In this document: positions 2,650 through 61,226 of the stretch, in pieces | Position numbering within the stretch: the first letter of the stretch is position 1 | Layout of the letters: each line of letters opens with the position of its first letter | From: Pseudomaricurvus alkylphenolicus | Lineage (GTDB): Bacteria > Pseudomonadota > Gammaproteobacteria > Pseudomonadales > Cellvibrionaceae | Assembly (NCBI RefSeq): GCF_011683955.1 | Contig: NZ_JAAQPI010000006.1 | Span: forward strand, 248,001 to 312,000 | Reading direction: 5' to 3' | Length of the DNA: 64,000 bases | The notes under the pieces: generated by a model | What the model saw: only the letters and a program-made list of their open reading frames with translations | Database searches by the model: none | Told to the model about the DNA's origin: nothing | Made by a program: the position numbers and the translations under genes

Positions 2650-5600
2650 TTAGCCTATACGGGAAAGCAGCTCCTCGGCCTCCTGTTTTTGCTCGTCGCT
2701 GCCTTCCTGAACCACTTCATCGAGAATGTCTTTGGCGCCATCCTGATCACCCATATCAATATAGGCTCTTGCGAGATCCAACTTGGTCGCCGCCTCATCA
2801 GTATCTGCCAGAAAATCCAGCTCGGCGTCCAGGTCTTCATCCGTGAGGTCATCGTCGCCCGCGAGTGCATCTTCTGGTTCGGGTAACTCGGACAGTGCCT
2901 CACTGAAAACATCATCCTGCGCACTTTCAGCCGCCGGCAGTTCCGTCTCAACTTCCGGCTCACGCATCAGCGTGTCATCCAGGTCGTCAGACATATCAGT
3001 GACTGCTTCAACCGTTTCCGCACGCACCAAAGTGACATCATCGTCAACGGGTGCTTCTGCCAGCGTAGGAATATCGGTGCCTTCTTCCTCCGTTTCGACA
3101 TCCAGCACCGCATCCAAATCCAGATCACCTGACAGATCGGTGTCCAGGCTGAATTCCTCCAAATCAGCAGTCTGGTCGCCTTCGTCTTCGGAAGTGAGAT
3201 CCATATCGGATGCCAGGGCATCAACCTCATCATCCAGTGCCGAGAGATCAATATCGGCCTCAATTTTGTCATCATCGAGATCAAAAGCTTCGCCGAGCTG
3301 ATCATCCTCAGCGCTGAGATCCAACTCCGCTTCCAGGCTCTCAGACTCAAGCGCGTCGTCATCGCTGTCATCGGGAAACTCGAGGTCAAAGTCCGCCTCT
3401 GCGGGCTGCAGATCCGCCTCTGACTCTGTCTCCGTTTCCAGGTCCATGGCTTCGAGTTCAGCGTTAATGGCGTCGGCGTCGATGGCTTCGGTTGCCTCAT
3501 CGTCGAGTTCTAGAGCATCCTCGCTATCAAACTCTGCCGCCAACTCTTGCAGGTCGGCATCCAGGTCAGCGGAGGGCTCTTCATCGGCTGAGGGCTCTTC
3601 ATCGGCTGAGGGCTCTTCATCGGCCGGGGGCTCCTCATCGGCTGAGGGCTCCTCAAATTCCGTGGCAAATTCTTCAAATTCCGCTGAGGGCTCTTGATCG
3701 GCTGAGGGCTCTTCAACAGCTGAGGGCTCCTCAAAAGAGAGATCCTCGTCAAGCAAAGCGGATTCTTCTTCGAAGAACGCCGAAGGTTCTTCTTCGGACT
3801 CCGGTTCGGGTGGTTGCTCCTCAAATTCGGCAGACAGATCGAATTCGGCTTCAGGTTCCTCGTCGACTGAGAGCTCTTCCGATTCCTCAAGTGCTGGAGC
3901 TTCTGCGTCAAAATCCGCGTCGAGCGCGTTGTCCAACTCGTTCAGCTCTGCAGATAAATCCATCTCCGCACTGTCGGATTCCGAGGTTTCGACATCCCAG
4001 TCCAGAGAGAATTCCTCTTCAGCCGCAGAGCCTTCTTCTACAGCCCCCTCATCGCCTTGAACATCCAGATCAGCGCTGTCTTCCAGCTCTCCAAGATCTA
4101 ATTCGAGGGAAGTGTCTGCCGCCAGTTCCGACTCCGCCGATTCAGTTTCAGTGGCGAAGTCGTCTTCCAGATTAAGATCGAACGAAACCTCTGAACCATC
4201 CTCTTCGGTTTCCACATCACCCAAATCGAGATCGAGATCGAGAGCTTCTGAAGAATCCACCTCCAGATCGGTGAGATCAAGATCCAGCTCTTCGTCCTGA
4301 GCAGCTTCCACCCCGTCGTCGCCGAGATCAAAATCCATGGCGAAATCTTCGGACTGATCATCTGTCGCTGAGGGCTGATCTTCCAACGCTGAAGGCTGAT
4401 CTTCCAACGCTGAGGGCTGATCTTCCAAAGCTGAAGGCTCTTCCCCCAACAGGGCGTCATCAAATGCGGGGGCATCCTCGAACTGCATGCGCAGATCTTC
4501 GGCCCTGGCAGTGGCACCTGAATCATTAGCGGCCACAACCCGAGCGTATTGCTGATCAAACTTGTCCAGCTCTTTGGTCTCGGTGTAGACCTCCATCAAT
4601 TTCAAGCGAGCGGACAAATCATTTTCATCTGCTTCCAAAGACTTCAGCAGCATTTCCTCTGCCTGGTCCAATTTGCCGTAGGCGATATAGATATCCGCTT
4701 CGCCAACCGCGTCGCCGGTCTGAGACTCGGTAGACAACGAAGGTTCGGCTTCGGCCTCTGTTTCCTGCTCTTCAAACAGAGCGTCGGCATCCGCGTCCAA
4801 TTCAGACAAAATGTCCTCATCAACAGCCGCTTCTTCAACCAGCTCTTCAGTGGTCTCTGCCTCTGGCTCCTCAAACACCGGCTGCTCCGGCTCAGCAACT
4901 GGCGCTGGCACCAGTTCTGTTTCCTCCTCCTCAGACTGTCGTCGTCTCAGCAGTAACAATACCCCCACAACCACCGCGAGCAACCCCCCGCCGATGTACA
5001 GCAGGTTATCCATCAGCCTATCCATCAACGACGGCGGCTTCGGCTGGGACCGGACAACACTGGTTGGATCGGGCGTCGAAGGAGGTTTAGTGGCTGGAGG
5101 AGGTGTGGGAGTCGCTGTAACCGGCGGTGCCGCCGGCGTCGCACTGACAAGGGTATCGTCTTGTGTGGGAGCGGTAGCACCTTCAGAAACCGCCAGATCC
5201 CGTTCAGATTGCTGACTGGCCAATTGCAGGGCGCGCAGCTCCTGACTGGACACCTCAAGCAACCGCTCCATGGTACCTATCTGCTCTTCGAGCTCCCTCA
5301 CCCGATCAGTAAGTTCAGCGTTTTCCCTGCGAGACTTGTCAAGCTCCTCCAATGCGGAACTGAGCTCACCCTGAAGGCCCTCAGTATCGCCACCTGTCTC
5401 ACCGGCGGCGCGTCCAGATTCGGAATCATACGAAGACGAGCTGCCCGCCACCTTCAGGCGACCTGACACCTCTTCATTACTCTCAGCCCTGGTCGCGCGG
5501 CGTTTGCCCCCCGCCAGCTGCGCGCCGAGATTACCGCTGCTCCACTGCTCATTCTGGTAAGCCACTTCACTGACGGCCTGGCGGCTGTTGACACCGGCGA

Positions 5601-6369
5601 TATCGTCCGCACTGGGCACCCGGAGCACTTGCCCTTTGCGCAGCAGGTTGATATTGCCATTGATAAACGCCTCAGGATTAAGGCTCTGAATCGCCAGCAT
5701 CGTCTGATGGACACTGAACTCCCGGCTGGGGCGTACATTCAGGGCAATCTCCCACAAAGTATCGCTGGAACTGACGGGCCCATAGACATTGCCACCACGG
5801 GCGTCAGATCTGGCAACCTGACGGGGAGTGCTTTGACGCTCGGCTGCCGGCTCACGGCGGGAAACAGTCGCCGGCTGCTGAGAACGGGGCTGCACCTCGC
5901 GGCGCGGCTCACCCACAGGCGCTTGCGGTGCTGTGCGGGCGCTCTGCACCGGACGGACGTTGTCGTCGGAAAAGACGGGCAAATCCATCAACAGCGTATA
6001 TTCACGCAAGATACGGCCGCTGGGCCATTGGGTTTCGAGCAGAAAATTCAGGTAGGGTTCACGAACCGGCTTGCGGCTGGTCACTCGTACAAACGGCGCT
6101 GACGGCCCTTCGAGCACCACCTCAAAACGCAGCTCAGTCAGGAAAAACAGACGATCAATACCCGCTCGCTGGAAATCCTCACGGGACGCAATCGCGACCA
6201 GAATCTCATCTTTCGAGAGATCCCTCGCCTGAAGCAGCTTAATTTCTGCTTCCAGCGGCTGATTCAAAGTGGAATTGAGTTTTATTTCTCCAAGCCCCAG
6301 GGCACTGGCTAACTCTGCCCCCAAGGCTCCCGCCAAACCCACGGCTAACGCCAGCTTACGAAGACGCAT
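2650..6369 (-). CDS. fimV: FimV, polar inner-membrane hub with LysM and acidic repeat region
   Basis: FimV organises polar assembly of type IV pili, twitching motility and cAMP signalling in Pseudomonas, and binds peptidoglycan through LysM. In its 1239 residues I see an N-terminal signal sequence (residues 1-24), a conserved FimV N-domain (about 25-135), a LysM domain (about 195-252), a coiled coil (about 330-395), a proline-rich linker (410-450), one membrane helix (about 454-475, LLYIGGGLLAVVVGVLLLL), a cytoplasmic TPR-like segment near 550-620, a very long Asp/Glu/Ser region, and the C-terminal FimV motif LARAYIDMGDQDGAKDILDE. It is longer than many homologues because of the acidic repeats. 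Confidence 0.96.
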   Translation of the reverse strand: MRLRKLALAVGLAGALGAELASALGLGEIKLNSTLNQPLEAEIKLLQARDLSKDEILVAIASREDFQRAGIDRLFFLTELRFEVVLEGPSAPFVRVTSRKPVREPYLNFLLETQWPSGRILREYTLLMDLPVFSDDNVRPVQSARTAPQAPVGEPRREVQPRSQQPATVSRREPAAERQSTPRQVARSDARGGNVYGPVSSSDTLWEIALNVRPSREFSVHQTMLAIQSLNPEAFINGNINLLRKGQVLRVPSADDIAGVNSRQAVSEVAYQNEQWSSGNLGAQLAGGKRRATRAESNEEVSGRLKVAGSSSSYDSESGRAAGETGGDTEGLQGELSSALEELDKSRRENAELTDRVRELEEQIGTMERLLEVSSQELRALQLASQQSERDLAVSEGATAPTQDDTLVSATPAAPPVTATPTPPPATKPPSTPDPTSVVRSQPKPPSLMDRLMDNLLYIGGGLLAVVVGVLLLLRRRQSEEEETELVPAPVAEPEQPVFEEPEAETTEELVEEAAVDEDILSELDADADALFEEQETEAEAEPSLSTESQTGDAVGEADIYIAYGKLDQAEEMLLKSLEADENDLSARLKLMEVYTETKELDKFDQQYARVVAANDSGATARAEDLRMQFEDAPAFDDALLGEEPSALEDQPSALEDQPSALEDQPSATDDQSEDFAMDFDLGDDGVEAAQDEELDLDLTDLEVDSSEALDLDLDLGDVETEEDGSEVSFDLNLEDDFATETESAESELAADTSLELDLGELEDSADLDVQGDEGAVEEGSAAEEEFSLDWDVETSESDSAEMDLSAELNELDNALDADFDAEAPALEESEELSVDEEPEAEFDLSAEFEEQPPEPESEEEPSAFFEEESALLDEDLSFEEPSAVEEPSADQEPSAEFEEFATEFEEPSADEEPPADEEPSADEEPSADEEPSADLDADLQELAAEFDSEDALELDDEATEAIDADAINAELEAMDLETETESEADLQPAEADFDLEFPDDSDDDALESESLEAELDLSAEDDQLGEAFDLDDDKIEADIDLSALDDEVDALASDMDLTSEDEGDQTADLEEFSLDTDLSGDLDLDAVLDVETEEEGTDIPTLAEAPVDDDVTLVRAETVEAVTDMSDDLDDTLMREPEVETELPAAESAQDDVFSEALSELPEPEDALAGDDDLTDEDLDAELDFLADTDEAATKLDLARAYIDMGDQDGAKDILDEVVQEGSDEQKQEAEELLSRIG
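3569..3654 (-). repeat. 18-bp tandem repeats inside fimV (PSADEE units)
   Basis: About five tandem 18-bp units with plus-strand core CGGCTGAGGGCTCTTCAT encode PSADEE hexapeptides in the acidic domain of FimV. Units at 3585-3602 and 3603-3620 are identical and the neighbours differ by a few bases. In-frame gain or loss of units would change domain length without breaking the gene. Confidence 0.85.
4367..4450 (-). repeat. 21-bp tandem repeats inside fimV (QPSALED units)
   Basis: Four near-identical 21-bp units start at 4367, 4388, 4409 and 4430. The first three encode QPSALED-type heptapeptides and the last is more diverged. They lie about 700 bp from the 18-bp array in the same gene and share the PSA motif, so the two arrays may have a common origin. 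Confidence 0.85.
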
Positions 6370-6539
6370 AGAACGTTCCTTTTGTTATCCCCTCGCCCCA
6401 CAGAGCCATCATGACTGTAAACGACGATTGCGGTCGAAACGTGCTACTCCGACGCGATCATCGGTCTGGCTGCGAAGAATACCACCCGAAGTTGAAGAAC
6501 AAACCTCGAATGATTCTCCAGTAATGGCCGTAAGTATTC

Positions 6540-6567
6540 ATTATAAATAGCTTTTTAGCAACAACAG
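6540..6567 (-). promoter_or_regulatory. Possible sigma-70 promoter of fimV
   Basis: On the minus strand CTGTTG (6562-6567) and a perfect TATAAT (6540-6545) are separated by 16 nt. This would give a leader of about 165 nt before the fimV ATG. The -35 match is weak, so this is only a candidate. Confidence 0.4.
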
Positions 6568-6756
6568 GGCCATTCAGAACAGGTTGGGGGACTCCCCGGT
6601 CGCATAAAATTAGACCCAATGCACAAAACTCGGTTTTTTTCGCCGACCGATATCTATTGAGGATAGATCACTCGGAGCCATGCACAAGCACCGAAAACCG
6701 TGAGAATAGGGATATTTTGAGAAGTGCTCAAAGAGCGGCAGAAAAGCAAGAGAAGA

Positions 6757-7897: not shown

Positions 7898-8308
7898 TTT
7901 TTCAATCTCTAAAAGTCAGGGTTAAAAATAAATTCCCAAACTGCCGCCGGGGCAGAAAATTGGGGGCGAAATAATAGCACAGATTAGAGGGGCTGTGGGC
8001 TTGAGGATTGGCACATGGGACAACATACCCAATACCCGATGTTTCTCCATATTAACTATTTGAAGTTAAGACGTTCAGAACCATAAAGGCAGGGTACCTC
8101 GGTCCAAAGGGTGGCTGGGTGTCCCCTGGAGGGGCATTTTAAGCGAACGCCGAAAGAGCCAATGAGACAAGCGTTTCTCAGCTTGGCTCATTGGGGACTG
8201 AGGGAAGCCCGGAGGGCCGGTAGCGTGCCCCTCCAGGGGATTCCCAGCCGCCCGTTGTGGCACAAAATTATCAGTCCCTTTCGCCCTTTCCGCAAAGACA
8301 AAAGTGGG
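7898..8308. other. Intergenic region between leuB and asd (411 bp)
   Basis: No gene is seen. The part nearest leuB (8109-8263) is copy 1 of the covarying palindromic element. The part nearest asd contains a small hairpin CTGCC/GGGCAG near 7942-7956 and AT-rich sequence that probably holds the asd promoter, although no clear -35/-10 pair was found. Confidence 0.55.
8109..8263 (+). repeat. Covarying palindromic element, copy 1
   Basis: The outer stem pairs 8109-8136 with 8226-8253: 28 positions, all paired except a 2-nt mismatch-type step and one G-T wobble. The inner hairpin pairs 8159-8172 with 8181-8194 around an 8-nt loop, with a single A-G mismatch. A small hairpin GCCC-GGA-GGGC follows, then the outer right arm, then GGCAC at 8259-8263. 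The junction between the hairpins contains ACTGAGGGAAGCCCGGAGGG, shared with copies 2 and 3. This is the most diverged copy and lacks the upstream GGCAC at the spacing seen in the others. It begins 45 nt past the leuB stop when read on the leuB strand. Confidence 0.88.
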
Positions 8309-12599: not shown

Positions 12600-12717
12600 T
12601 GTAGTGCATCCGAAGTTGGTTTCAGAGTTGGTGCCAACACCCGTCGCGCTCAGAGCGCGCTGCTACAGCGTGAAATACGCACCAGTGCAAATTACCACCG
12701 AAACGAAATAACAATGA

Positions 12718-12900
12718 GGCACCACAATTGACGCACCGCGTTGTAAAAGGTGGCTGGGGTGCGGTTTCCGGAGCATTAAAGAGGGTGCCGAAGGAGTCAA
12801 AAAGACCGGCGTTTTTTGTCGGGCTTTTTGGTGACTGAGGGAAGCCCGGAGGGCCACCCGACTGCTCCGGAAACCGCACCCCAGCCGCCGCTTGAGGCAC
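12718..12900 (+). repeat. Covarying palindromic element, copy 2 (best formed)
   Basis: The outer stem pairs 12749-12775 with 12863-12889: 26 of 27 Watson-Crick pairs and one G-T wobble. The inner hairpin pairs 12798-12810 with 12818-12830 (CAAAAAGACCGGC with GTCGGGCTTTTTG), with the shared A-G mismatch plus one wobble-type difference. The small hairpin is GCCC-GGA-GGGC at 12844-12854. GGCAC occurs 26 nt before the left arm (12718-12722) and 6 nt after the right arm (12896-12900). Outer-arm sequence is largely unlike copies 1, 3 and 4, while junctions are alike. Confidence 0.93.
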
Positions 12901-12904
12901 CAGA

Positions 12905-13010
12905 CCTGCAGCCGCCTGAGCTCCGAACCTGCCACCGCTAGAGAACCAAACCTACCACCGTCTGAGCTCCGAACCTGCAATCGCTAGAGAACCAACCTGC
13001 AGCCTCCTGA
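12905..13010. repeat. 46-bp tandem repeat, 2.3 units
   Basis: Unit 1 is 12905-12950, unit 2 is 12951-12995 and a partial third runs 12996-13010. Shared blocks are CTGAGCTCCGAACCTGC and CGCTAGAGAACCAA. It begins immediately after the right end of palindromic copy 2. No coding potential is seen. Confidence 0.8.
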
Positions 13011-26511: not shown

Positions 26512-26696
26512 GGCACCACCCCACGAGAACCGCGGTGTTGGAGGTGGTTGGGGGCAGTGTTTTCGGAGCGTTAAAGAGGAGCACCGAAGGAGCCAAAATG
26601 ACCGGCGTTTTTTGCCGGGCATTTTGGTGACTGAGGGTAGCCCGGAGGGCCGCCCGACAGCTCCGAAAATGCTGCCGCCAACCGCCTTTGAGGCAC
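26512..26696 (+). repeat. Covarying palindromic element, copy 3
   Basis: The outer stem pairs 26543-26569 with 26660-26686 (27 positions: 23 Watson-Crick, 3 wobble, 1 G-G). The inner hairpin pairs CCAAAATGACCGGC (26593-26606) with GCCGGGCATTTTGG (26614-26627) except for the A-G mismatch. The small hairpin GCCC-GGA-GGGC is at 26640-26650. GGCAC lies 26 nt before the left arm and 5 nt after the right arm. On the minus strand it begins about 55 nt past the stop of the thioesterase gene. Confidence 0.92.
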
Positions 26697-41486: not shown

Positions 41487-41792
41487 TCAACTGAGCCCAT
41501 GTAGTGAAACTACCAAAAGGGCAATTAATCCCACCAGCAGCATCCCCGCCTCCCAGAGAAACTGACGTTGCCGACGATTGAGGGCAGCAATGATTTCTTC
41601 CTGATCACAGGCCCGCGCCTGCGGATTTCTCAAGATCTCCTGGCAACGCAGCCGGGCATATTCCAGGCGCTGTCGCGTACCTTTGCTTCTGGCCAGCACT
41701 TTGGCCTGCGCCCAGATATCGAGCTTAAAACGCTGCAGGCGAATCTCCTCCGCCGCCACCTTCACCGCTTTTCTGCGAGAAACCCTAGTCAT
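41487..41792 (-). CDS. Small membrane-anchored hypothetical protein
   Basis: About 101 residues. The N-terminal 75 residues are basic and helical, and one hydrophobic helix (AGMLLVGLIALLVVSLHGLS) ends the protein, suggesting a tail anchor. I do not recognise a family. The start could also be an ATG at 41807. Tandem repeats lie directly upstream. Confidence 0.6.
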   Translation of the reverse strand: MTRVSRRKAVKVAAEEIRLQRFKLDIWAQAKVLARSKGTRQRLEYARLRCQEILRNPQARACDQEEIIAALNRRQRQFLWEAGMLLVGLIALLVVSLHGLS

Positions 41793-41813
41793 AAGCCTTA
41801 AACCCATCGCCTC

Positions 41814-41945
41814 TAGAGAGTCTTCAACCTGTCTCTTCTAATTCTAAAGAGTCTTCAACCTGTCTCTTCTAATTCTAAAGAGTCTTCAACCGGTCTCTTC
41901 TAAAGAGTCTTCAACCTGTTTTTTCTAAAGAGCCGTCAAAATTCC
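41814..41945. repeat. Tandem 31/25-bp repeats between two divergent genes
   Basis: Four full units and one partial unit, all beginning TAAAGAGTCTTCAACC (the first reads TAGAGAG). Units 1 and 2 have 31 bp (41814-41844, 41845-41875), units 3 and 4 have 25 bp (41876-41900, 41901-41925), and a partial unit ends near 41945. Each unit can form a small AAGAG/CTCTT hairpin. The array sits about 120 bp before the chemoreceptor ATG. Confidence 0.85.
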
Positions 41946-61042: not shown

Positions 61043-61226
61043 GGCACAAAACTCGACCTGCTGCTGTGTAGAAGGTGGCCGGGGTGTTGTTTTCGGTGCG
61101 TAAAAGAGGAGCGCTGAATGAGCAAAAGAGACCAGCGCTTTTTGCTGGGCTCTTTTGGGAATGAAGGAACCCCGGAGGGGCGCCCGACAGCACCGAAAAC
61201 AACACCCCTGCCGCCGCTTGAGGCAC
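61043..61226 (+). repeat. Covarying palindromic element, copy 4
   Basis: The outer stem pairs 61074-61099 with 61190-61215 (24 Watson-Crick pairs, one wobble and one C-T in 26). The inner hairpin pairs CAAAAGAGACCAGC (61123-61136) with GCTGGGCTCTTTTG (61144-61157) except for the A-G mismatch. Its small hairpin is CCCC-GGA-GGGG (61170-61180), a compensatory change from GCCC-GGA-GGGC. GGCAC lies 26 nt before the left arm and 6 nt after the right arm. On the minus strand it begins just after the lrp stop. Confidence 0.92.

Follow-up and report, generated by a model that had tools for sequence, protein, structure and literature searches.

Among the described bacterial repeats that come closest to the element reported here, REP/REPIN sequences are linked to TnpA_REP (RAYT), and one class of Y1 enzymes goes with structures that have a CnGA foot, as described in excerpts of PMC6006769. 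ERIC and YPAL repeats, besides their description in PMC2229807, are also tabulated in PMC2267715 (excerpts in both cases). According to the excerpted text of PMC5371812, an orientation that follows replication is known for IS200/IS605, Tn7 and other insertion sequences, a preference for the terminus for IS200/IS605 and Tn7, and similar biases for other IS families with clamp-binding transposases. The window analysed in this study is a stretch of 64,000 nucleotides of the Pseudomaricurvus alkylphenolicus genome, and it contains four copies of a palindromic element that Rfam searches miss and for which no description was found in the open-licence literature searched. We know of few bacterial repeat families in which a long stem with paired letters that are swapped from copy to copy goes together with a replication-strand polarity of 94%. 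The element lends itself to testing what happens when folded single strands encounter replication forks, and whether the spread of palindromic repeats goes by single-strand DNA or by RNA, or selection sorts them afterwards.

The initial annotation had placed the four copies on the plus strand of the window, and all four were recovered at those positions by a covariance-model search. Copy 1, of a second subfamily, spans 8109..8263 (core 8110-8252, E 2.8e-28, 128.8 bits) and is part of the 31-copy alignments; the match of copy 2 lies at 12749-12889 (E 1.3e-37); copy 3 spans 26512..26696 (core 26543-26686, E 1.2e-31, 142.6 bits) and copy 4 spans 61043..61226 (core 61074-61215, E 4.8e-34, 152.6 bits). 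These E-values are so low partly by construction, as the four copies are among the 31 rows of the model. Independently of the covariance model, blastn with the single copy at 12.7 kb as query gave 41 copies longer than 140 nt and three 27-nt matches in the host genome. The RNA folding energies of copies 1 to 4 were below those of dinucleotide shuffles, with z values of -7.75, -9.69, -9.39 and -8.16, respectively, and none of 200 shuffles was as low as the real copy in any of the four; the reverse strands also scored z -7.3 to -9.0, which is typical of palindromes. That the element belongs to no named Rfam family was upheld, since Rfam 15 at the gathering threshold gave no match in the window or in six further loci, five of them with copies. 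Matches below the threshold were attributed to chance similarity among long hairpins, the best being MIR1437 at 31.8 bits against a cut-off of 168. The neighbours of the four copies are ordinary: dehydrogenases of the semialdehyde and the isocitrate/isopropylmalate types at copy 1, a LysR regulator at copy 2 with ORFs lacking a Pfam match on the opposite side, HSP90 and a thioesterase type at copy 3, and HPPD and AsnC types at copy 4. The window also contains tandem repeats of 18 bp at 3548-3753, inside a large reverse ORF (2650-6369), and of about 31 bp at 41794-41928, where a short ORF on the reverse strand (41487-41807) has its edge.

With copy 2 as reference, the unit reads, 5' to 3', as a AATAACAATGAGGCACCAAAC-type end, a possible small hairpin, the outer stem, a ATTAAAGA-type linker, P2 and CCGAAGGAG, followed by the inner hairpin, GGGACTGAGGGAA, the GGA-loop hairpin, P2', the outer arm and a TTGAGGCACCAAACC-type tail, all on the plus strand. 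The 5' part (12707..12748), defined from 31 oriented and aligned copies, comprises a AATAACAATGAGGCAC-type end and perhaps a small hairpin whose conserved loop is of the ACYRCGG type; the hairpin was picked out by eye in individual copies, and no clear covarying helix emerged there from a scan of columns. The outer stem, with its 5' arm at 12749..12774 and its 3' arm at 12864..12889, has 98.9% of its cells paired and double changes in 19 of 27 pairs, and it encloses the P2 stem (5' arm 12783..12787, 3' arm 12855..12859), with 91.6% of cells paired and double changes in four of five pairs; the 3' arms of both were placed from the structure alignment of the 31 host copies. Between the 5' arm of P2 and the inner hairpin lies the purine-rich junction CCGAAGGAG (12788..12796), whose CCGA columns are at least 95% conserved in other genomes, CCGA being found in 50 of 61 host copies and 56 of 61 copies of other genomes. 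The inner hairpin (12797..12831; 98.8% of cells paired) consists of an A-run, a G+C stem and a T-run (AAAAAGACCGGCG-T run-GCCGGGCTTTTT), 13 bp in all with one constant A.G mismatch. It is terminator-like, and in copy 2 it was flagged as such on the plus strand, one of two in the stretch where 0.6 would be expected. It is followed by a second purine-rich junction, TGACTGAGGGAA (12832..12843), in which the GAGGG columns reach a conservation of 95% or more in other genomes, and by the GGA-loop hairpin (12844..12854), in which 93.5% of cells are paired in the 31 host copies and 96.2% in the alignment of other genomes. The layout proposed in the initial annotation was borne out, with an outer stem of 26-27 bp, an inner hairpin of 13 bp and a GGA hairpin of 4 bp. 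Its limits for copy 2, 12718-12900, gave the right place and too short an extent. Conservation of the flanks fades near -40 to -47 and near +28 in 61 host copies, which makes the unit about 210 nt long, and together with the alignment it puts the whole conserved unit with both end motifs at roughly 12707..12916. The 3' tail (12890..12916, from flank conservation) carries the GCTTGAGGCAC motif, a direct repeat of the 5' end motif, so that a motif of about 14 nt (TTGAGGCACCAAAC type) stands at both ends of the unit, as judged by eye. A local tandem array of 23-nt units, picked up by repeat-family detection, starts in this tail (12899..12990). Other REP-like palindromes, of the GTCGGATTAGC and GTCGCGCTC.GAGCGCGC types, were seen near copies (upstream in L083 and L086, and near 12640 of the window) and are apparently a separate repeat family.

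That the four copies form one structured family, in which pairing is retained while the letters vary, is supported by two alignments. The first holds 31 host copies, i.e. 30 loci and the 8109 copy, on which RNAalifold predicted 46 pairs, 30 of them with double changes. When the P2 stem and the GGA hairpin were added, the refined structure of 49 pairs had 97.7% of cells paired and double changes in 34 pairs (161 cells). None of 500 shuffles of this alignment was as high on any measure, although such shuffles lose relatedness and overstate covariation; when columns were slid by 1-3, a control that retains relatedness, pairing fell to 38-56%. The second alignment, of 61 matches from ten other genomes (60 distinct, orthologs included, and fitted to the model), had 94.3% of cells paired and double changes in 43 of 48 pairs (927 cells), against 52.4% or less when slid. 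The outer stems differ widely between copies of other genomes, orthologs apart. Selection on structure and not on sequence, as had been claimed, is the simplest reading of these data; it is not the whole story. In 13 ortholog comparisons, double changes yielded another Watson-Crick pair in 26 cases and left a mismatch in three, and of the one-sided changes 18 went between Watson-Crick and G.U and 17 created or repaired a mismatch. These comparisons are not independent, 18 of the 26 double changes coming from two comparisons with the same L145 copy, and the near equality of 18 and 17 means that recent one-sided changes in the stem are not strongly filtered. At two sites the middle of the stem was replaced as a block between matched flanks 88-97% alike (L145 against L125/L134, and L146 against L111), and the source of these blocks was not found. 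From the ortholog changes and these two sites, the outer stem seems to evolve by both compensated drift and block replacement. A chimeric tandem copy in L203 (66 bits) has arms from two different stems. Beside a full copy in L125, at about 6500-6580, there is a solo outer-stem palindrome with the core missing; in L204 of R2S4C1D, at about 740-1080, the inner-hairpin loop of a copy is interrupted by an inverted repeat of about 200 nt, a palindrome within a palindrome; and short-repeat arrays of the TTAGACGTGAGACGT type lie just before the element upstream in L111, L143 and L146 and in L204 (Pseudoteredinibacter, R2S4C1D).

The alignments also bear on which strand folds. On the given strand, G.T or T.G occupied 62 cells and A.C or C.A three cells in the 31 host copies, and 95 and 31 cells, respectively, in the 61 copies of other genomes; these cells share ancestry and are not independent events. 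The excess of G.T over A.C indicates that the folding of the given strand is the better kept. This suggests that it is the given strand that folds, an asymmetry compatible with RNA or with single-stranded DNA.

By the covariance-model search, the host genome of 8.9 Mb has 62 copies or more. This count is a lower bound, as 150 of 3,000 candidates were scored; from 97 rows, 32 mirror matches on the reverse strand were removed, along with C16:79235 at a contig end and the 62-74-nt palindromes C55:342634 and C68:16321. One of the 62, C8:53675, is partial, and the flank scan used 61 of them. Among 58 genomes of the genus, family and order, four had a match: the host, G014 with 12 copies, G039 with four, and G015, whose weak match (E 7e-5) was judged false as the core was missing. 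None of five other congeners had a match under strict filters with 55 candidates scored per genome. A degenerate pattern run over 84,980 species matched 46 stretches, and every one came from a record with the title Gammaproteobacteria, Pseudomonadales, Cellvibrionaceae or Pseudoteredinibacter, the last two of which lie within Gammaproteobacteria in the NCBI taxonomy; an exact pattern misses divergent copies, so that this result does not establish absence outside Gammaproteobacteria. Ten other genomes with gammaproteobacterial titles had 3 to 39 copies each, in tallies that include weak and chimeric matches: Baikal-deep-G147 39, Co_bin.231 15, Pseudoteredinibacter sp. 4-665-3Z 13, Pseudoteredinibacter sp. 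208 12, Cellvibrionaceae R2S4C1D 9, UBA7449 5, OFTM290 4, S4_Bin_50 4, 8_bin.44 4 and P. isoporae 3. With one copy as query there was no match in phages and plasmids, and none by blastn (E 1e-3) among 20,395 records of E. coli; viral contigs gave no exact match to the pattern.

The shared orientation of the four window copies is real and correlates with the replication strand. By GC skew, our stand-in for fork direction, 58 of the 62 host copies are on the C-rich strand (p=2.6e-13, treating copies as independent), the skew being taken from 10 kb on each side, or less where the region ended. Two of the four exceptions are in head-to-head pairs (C55:180668 and C34:303070, 176 and 446 nt apart), and on C11, where the skew switches near 930 kb, four copies switch along with it. 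In other genomes, with a noisy 8-kb skew, single copies were on the C-rich strand in 30 of 39 cases and paired copies in 11 of 22. The nine single-copy exceptions include three orthologs between prpB-like and prpC-like genes (named by eye), three with a skew of less than 0.01 in size, and one that is half of a pair, the OFTM290 copy, whose partner is at the very end of the locus or beyond it. Genes in the same regions showed only a mild strand bias (424 vs 343), and in co-directional gaps 14 copies run along the genes and 17 against them; the strand polarity is not explained by gene direction. None of the 62 host copies is inside a gene predicted by our own simple gene caller. The two contigs with an origin-like skew switch have few copies, one on the 784 kb of C23 and four on the 1,387 kb of C11, and 2.0 Mb on other contigs, which are unplaced, also hold no counted copy. 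The two switches, near 545 kb on C23, close to dnaA at 573 kb, and near 930 kb on C11, are an observation in their own right that two chromosomes or a mixed assembly would explain. A dif-like pattern gave two matches with three mismatches on C19 and was not used.

Several observations speak for movement. Four host copies have identical 142-nt cores, and their pairwise similarity extends over 204-620 nt at 88-98% and then stops. Three copies of Pseudoteredinibacter sp. 208 lie in regions where P. isoporae has no more than about 45 and 140 nt left between BLAST matches, with rough alignments across the gaps and only 74-78% identity to P. isoporae there. In inverted orientation, two of these three copies lie on either side of a pair of overlapping ORFs, and part of that block matches another place in P. 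isoporae. The comparison suggests insertion in sp. 208, with loss in the distant P. isoporae as the other possibility. Co_bin.231, Baikal and S4_Bin_50 have head-to-head pairs, with 51-123 nt between the two copies in the nine examples shown, and the 3' tail is repeated in tandem at some copies. Orthologous sites are common to several species, which means that many copies are old. No target-site duplication stands out: the best case was 5 of 61 copies against 0.38 expected, for one 4-mer setting of 24,000 scanned and with exact ends uncertain. No specific gene family recurs beside the copies in the 46 named loci (8 kb at most), the 14 host loci of 20 kb and the window; the families that do recur look common, as judged by eye. 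A Y1 transposase was rejected as partner: it is present in 9 of 10 genomes with the element but also in 5 of 14 controls, and none is close to a copy.

The explanation that we favour, and hold to be rather probable, is a mobile element, non-autonomous and about 210 nt long, of the MITE/REPIN/ERIC kind and without a gene of its own, which would be moved by a fold-recognising enzyme acting in trans and whose spread or survival would be linked to the replication fork. The folded single strand would be the substrate of this enzyme, which may read the core (CCGA..GA, the A.G mismatch, GAGGG.A and the GGA loop) and need the outer stem merely as a stem. Insertion, or survival afterwards, would take place at forks with one polarity, and the terminator-like inner hairpin may limit harm to neighbouring genes. 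In favour are the 62 or more host copies, the identical cores, the patchy spread, the empty-looking sites, the bias to the C-rich strand and the intergenic placement, in which convergent gaps are favoured and divergent ones avoided. Against it are the null searches for a partner gene and for a target-site duplication and a polarity of the better-folding strand opposite to that of IS200/IS605, as well as the age of many copies and the chance that an empty-looking P. isoporae site is a loss; the identical cores could stem from gene conversion.

An unlikely alternative is a structured RNA that is transcribed and serves in regulation or processing (a 3'-UTR element, an sRNA or an RNase site), spread by duplication and kept for its RNA fold. 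The strong covariation in both alignments, the single folded strand indicated by G.T over A.C, and the terminator-like inner hairpin in the copy tested would all suit it. So would the preference for convergent gaps: of the 60 copies with both neighbours, 26 are in convergent gaps, which make up 25.7% of the intergenic length (p 0.003), three in divergent gaps (23.3%, p 0.0003) and 31 in co-directional gaps (51.0%). There is also a precedent in ERIC RNA, which is reported to affect mRNA stability in an orientation-dependent manner (PMC2229807, excerpt). However, the gene neighbours are not consistent, the copies in co-directional gaps run along the genes in 14 cases and against them in 17, no sigma-70-like promoter was seen in 401 bases at one copy, and presence among genomes is patchy.

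The polarity itself may arise in other ways. If insertion were random in orientation, and selection then disfavoured a lagging-strand template with the more stable hairpin, nothing about the mechanism of insertion would follow from the polarity. When folded as DNA, the given strand was more stable than its complement in all 30 host copies tested of the 62, with mean energies of -51.2 and -45.3 kcal/mol, respectively, a comparison that does not tell RNA from DNA; this agrees with such selection, as the reverse strand is the one that sits in the lagging template, and the core-deleted palindrome, the chimeric tandem copy and the local 3' duplications show that copies undergo rearrangement. On the other hand, the stem of about 26 bp is common to both strands, and 6 kcal/mol seems small for a 94% bias; we hold this account to be improbable. 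We likewise give little credence to a SINE-like retroelement, in which a short structured RNA from the given strand would be copied into DNA at forks by a reverse transcriptase acting in trans. The G.U-tolerant fold of the given strand, a cDNA strand within the G-rich strand and the tandem repeats of the 3' tail would fit. We know of no RNA-moved short element of this kind in bacteria. Very improbable is a polar chromosome mark, like KOPS and other architecture sequences, read by a replication or segregation protein and kept in orientation by selection. In its favour, 58 of 62 copies lie on one replication strand and C23 and C11 are poor in copies (as are the 2.0 Mb elsewhere); against it, all five other congeners had no match, Pseudoteredinibacter species apparently differ in presence and absence, and inverted pairs in several genomes hold both orientations.

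To return to the non-autonomous mobile element, its comparison with known systems starts with two readings that had been suggested for the fold and that were not supported. For an integron attC site, RYYYAAC and GTTRRRY occurred together anywhere in 3 of 61 copies and in flanking order in none; for a retron ncRNA or group II intron, the genome has two RVT_1 (reverse transcriptase) matches, whose 3-kb loci gave one 81-nt match at E 0.91 and no convincing element. The IS200/IS605 family is alike in an orientation that follows replication and, on the reading favoured here, in a folded single strand as substrate (PMC5371812 and PMC6006769, excerpts). In contrast to that family, the element has no transposase gene, and by GC skew its better-folding strand is outside the lagging-strand template: for a MITE of IS200/IS605, what was found is that the given strand is on the C-rich strand in 58 of 62 copies and that both strands can fold, the given one better. 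REP/REPIN sequences resemble the element in being intergenic and numerous, with single-strand hairpins, inverted doublets and reported compensatory changes (PMC3116915, excerpt). A further likeness is that the base of the outer stem contains a paired GTGG or GTAG in 46 of 61 host copies, though this is true of only 2 of 61 others. The 5' GT[AG]G of the REP/REPIN foot was generally lacking at the hairpin feet. Of the 61 host copies, two have GTRG within 10 nt before the outer stem and six at core positions 83-102; for the 61 copies of other genomes the figures are eight and three, and neither set has it in the junction ahead of the inner hairpin. With respect to the Y1 class with a CnGA foot (PMC6006769, excerpt), the conserved CCGA of the element is before the inner hairpin and not at the hairpin foot. 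GTRG in the stem base of 46 of 61 host copies and the likeness of CnGA to CCGA are two leads towards a possible Y1 enzyme. No TnpA_REP gene flanked by copies was found. About 1.5 kb around 22 Y1 loci of other genomes contained one chance-level 36-nt match (E 0.08), three host Y1 loci (L033-L035) had no copy up to E 1, and P. isoporae has three copies and no Y1 match; in C21 of Baikal-deep-G147, a Y1 match with an internal stop about 5 kb from a pair of copies counts against this negative finding. The element also differs from REP/REPIN in being more than twice as long and in its conserved core and variable stem, whereas REPINs have conserved ends and a variable spacer. Classical MITE ends, with terminal inverted repeats and a target-site duplication, were not seen; the end motif is direct (by eye), and the test is a weak one as the exact ends are uncertain. 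By sequence the element is not ERIC/RU-1, the 127-bp enterobacterial repeat, one copy having no match in E. coli. ERIC/RU-1, YPAL/RU-2 and other MITE-like repeats are nevertheless similar in their 100-200 bp, their long paired stem and their position between genes (PMC2229807, excerpt), and differ from the element in its three-way-junction core, its direct and not inverted end motif and its replication-strand polarity. In anatomy and polarity it is a variant for which no counterpart was seen in the literature searched, while by kind it belongs with the short palindromic repeats of bacteria.
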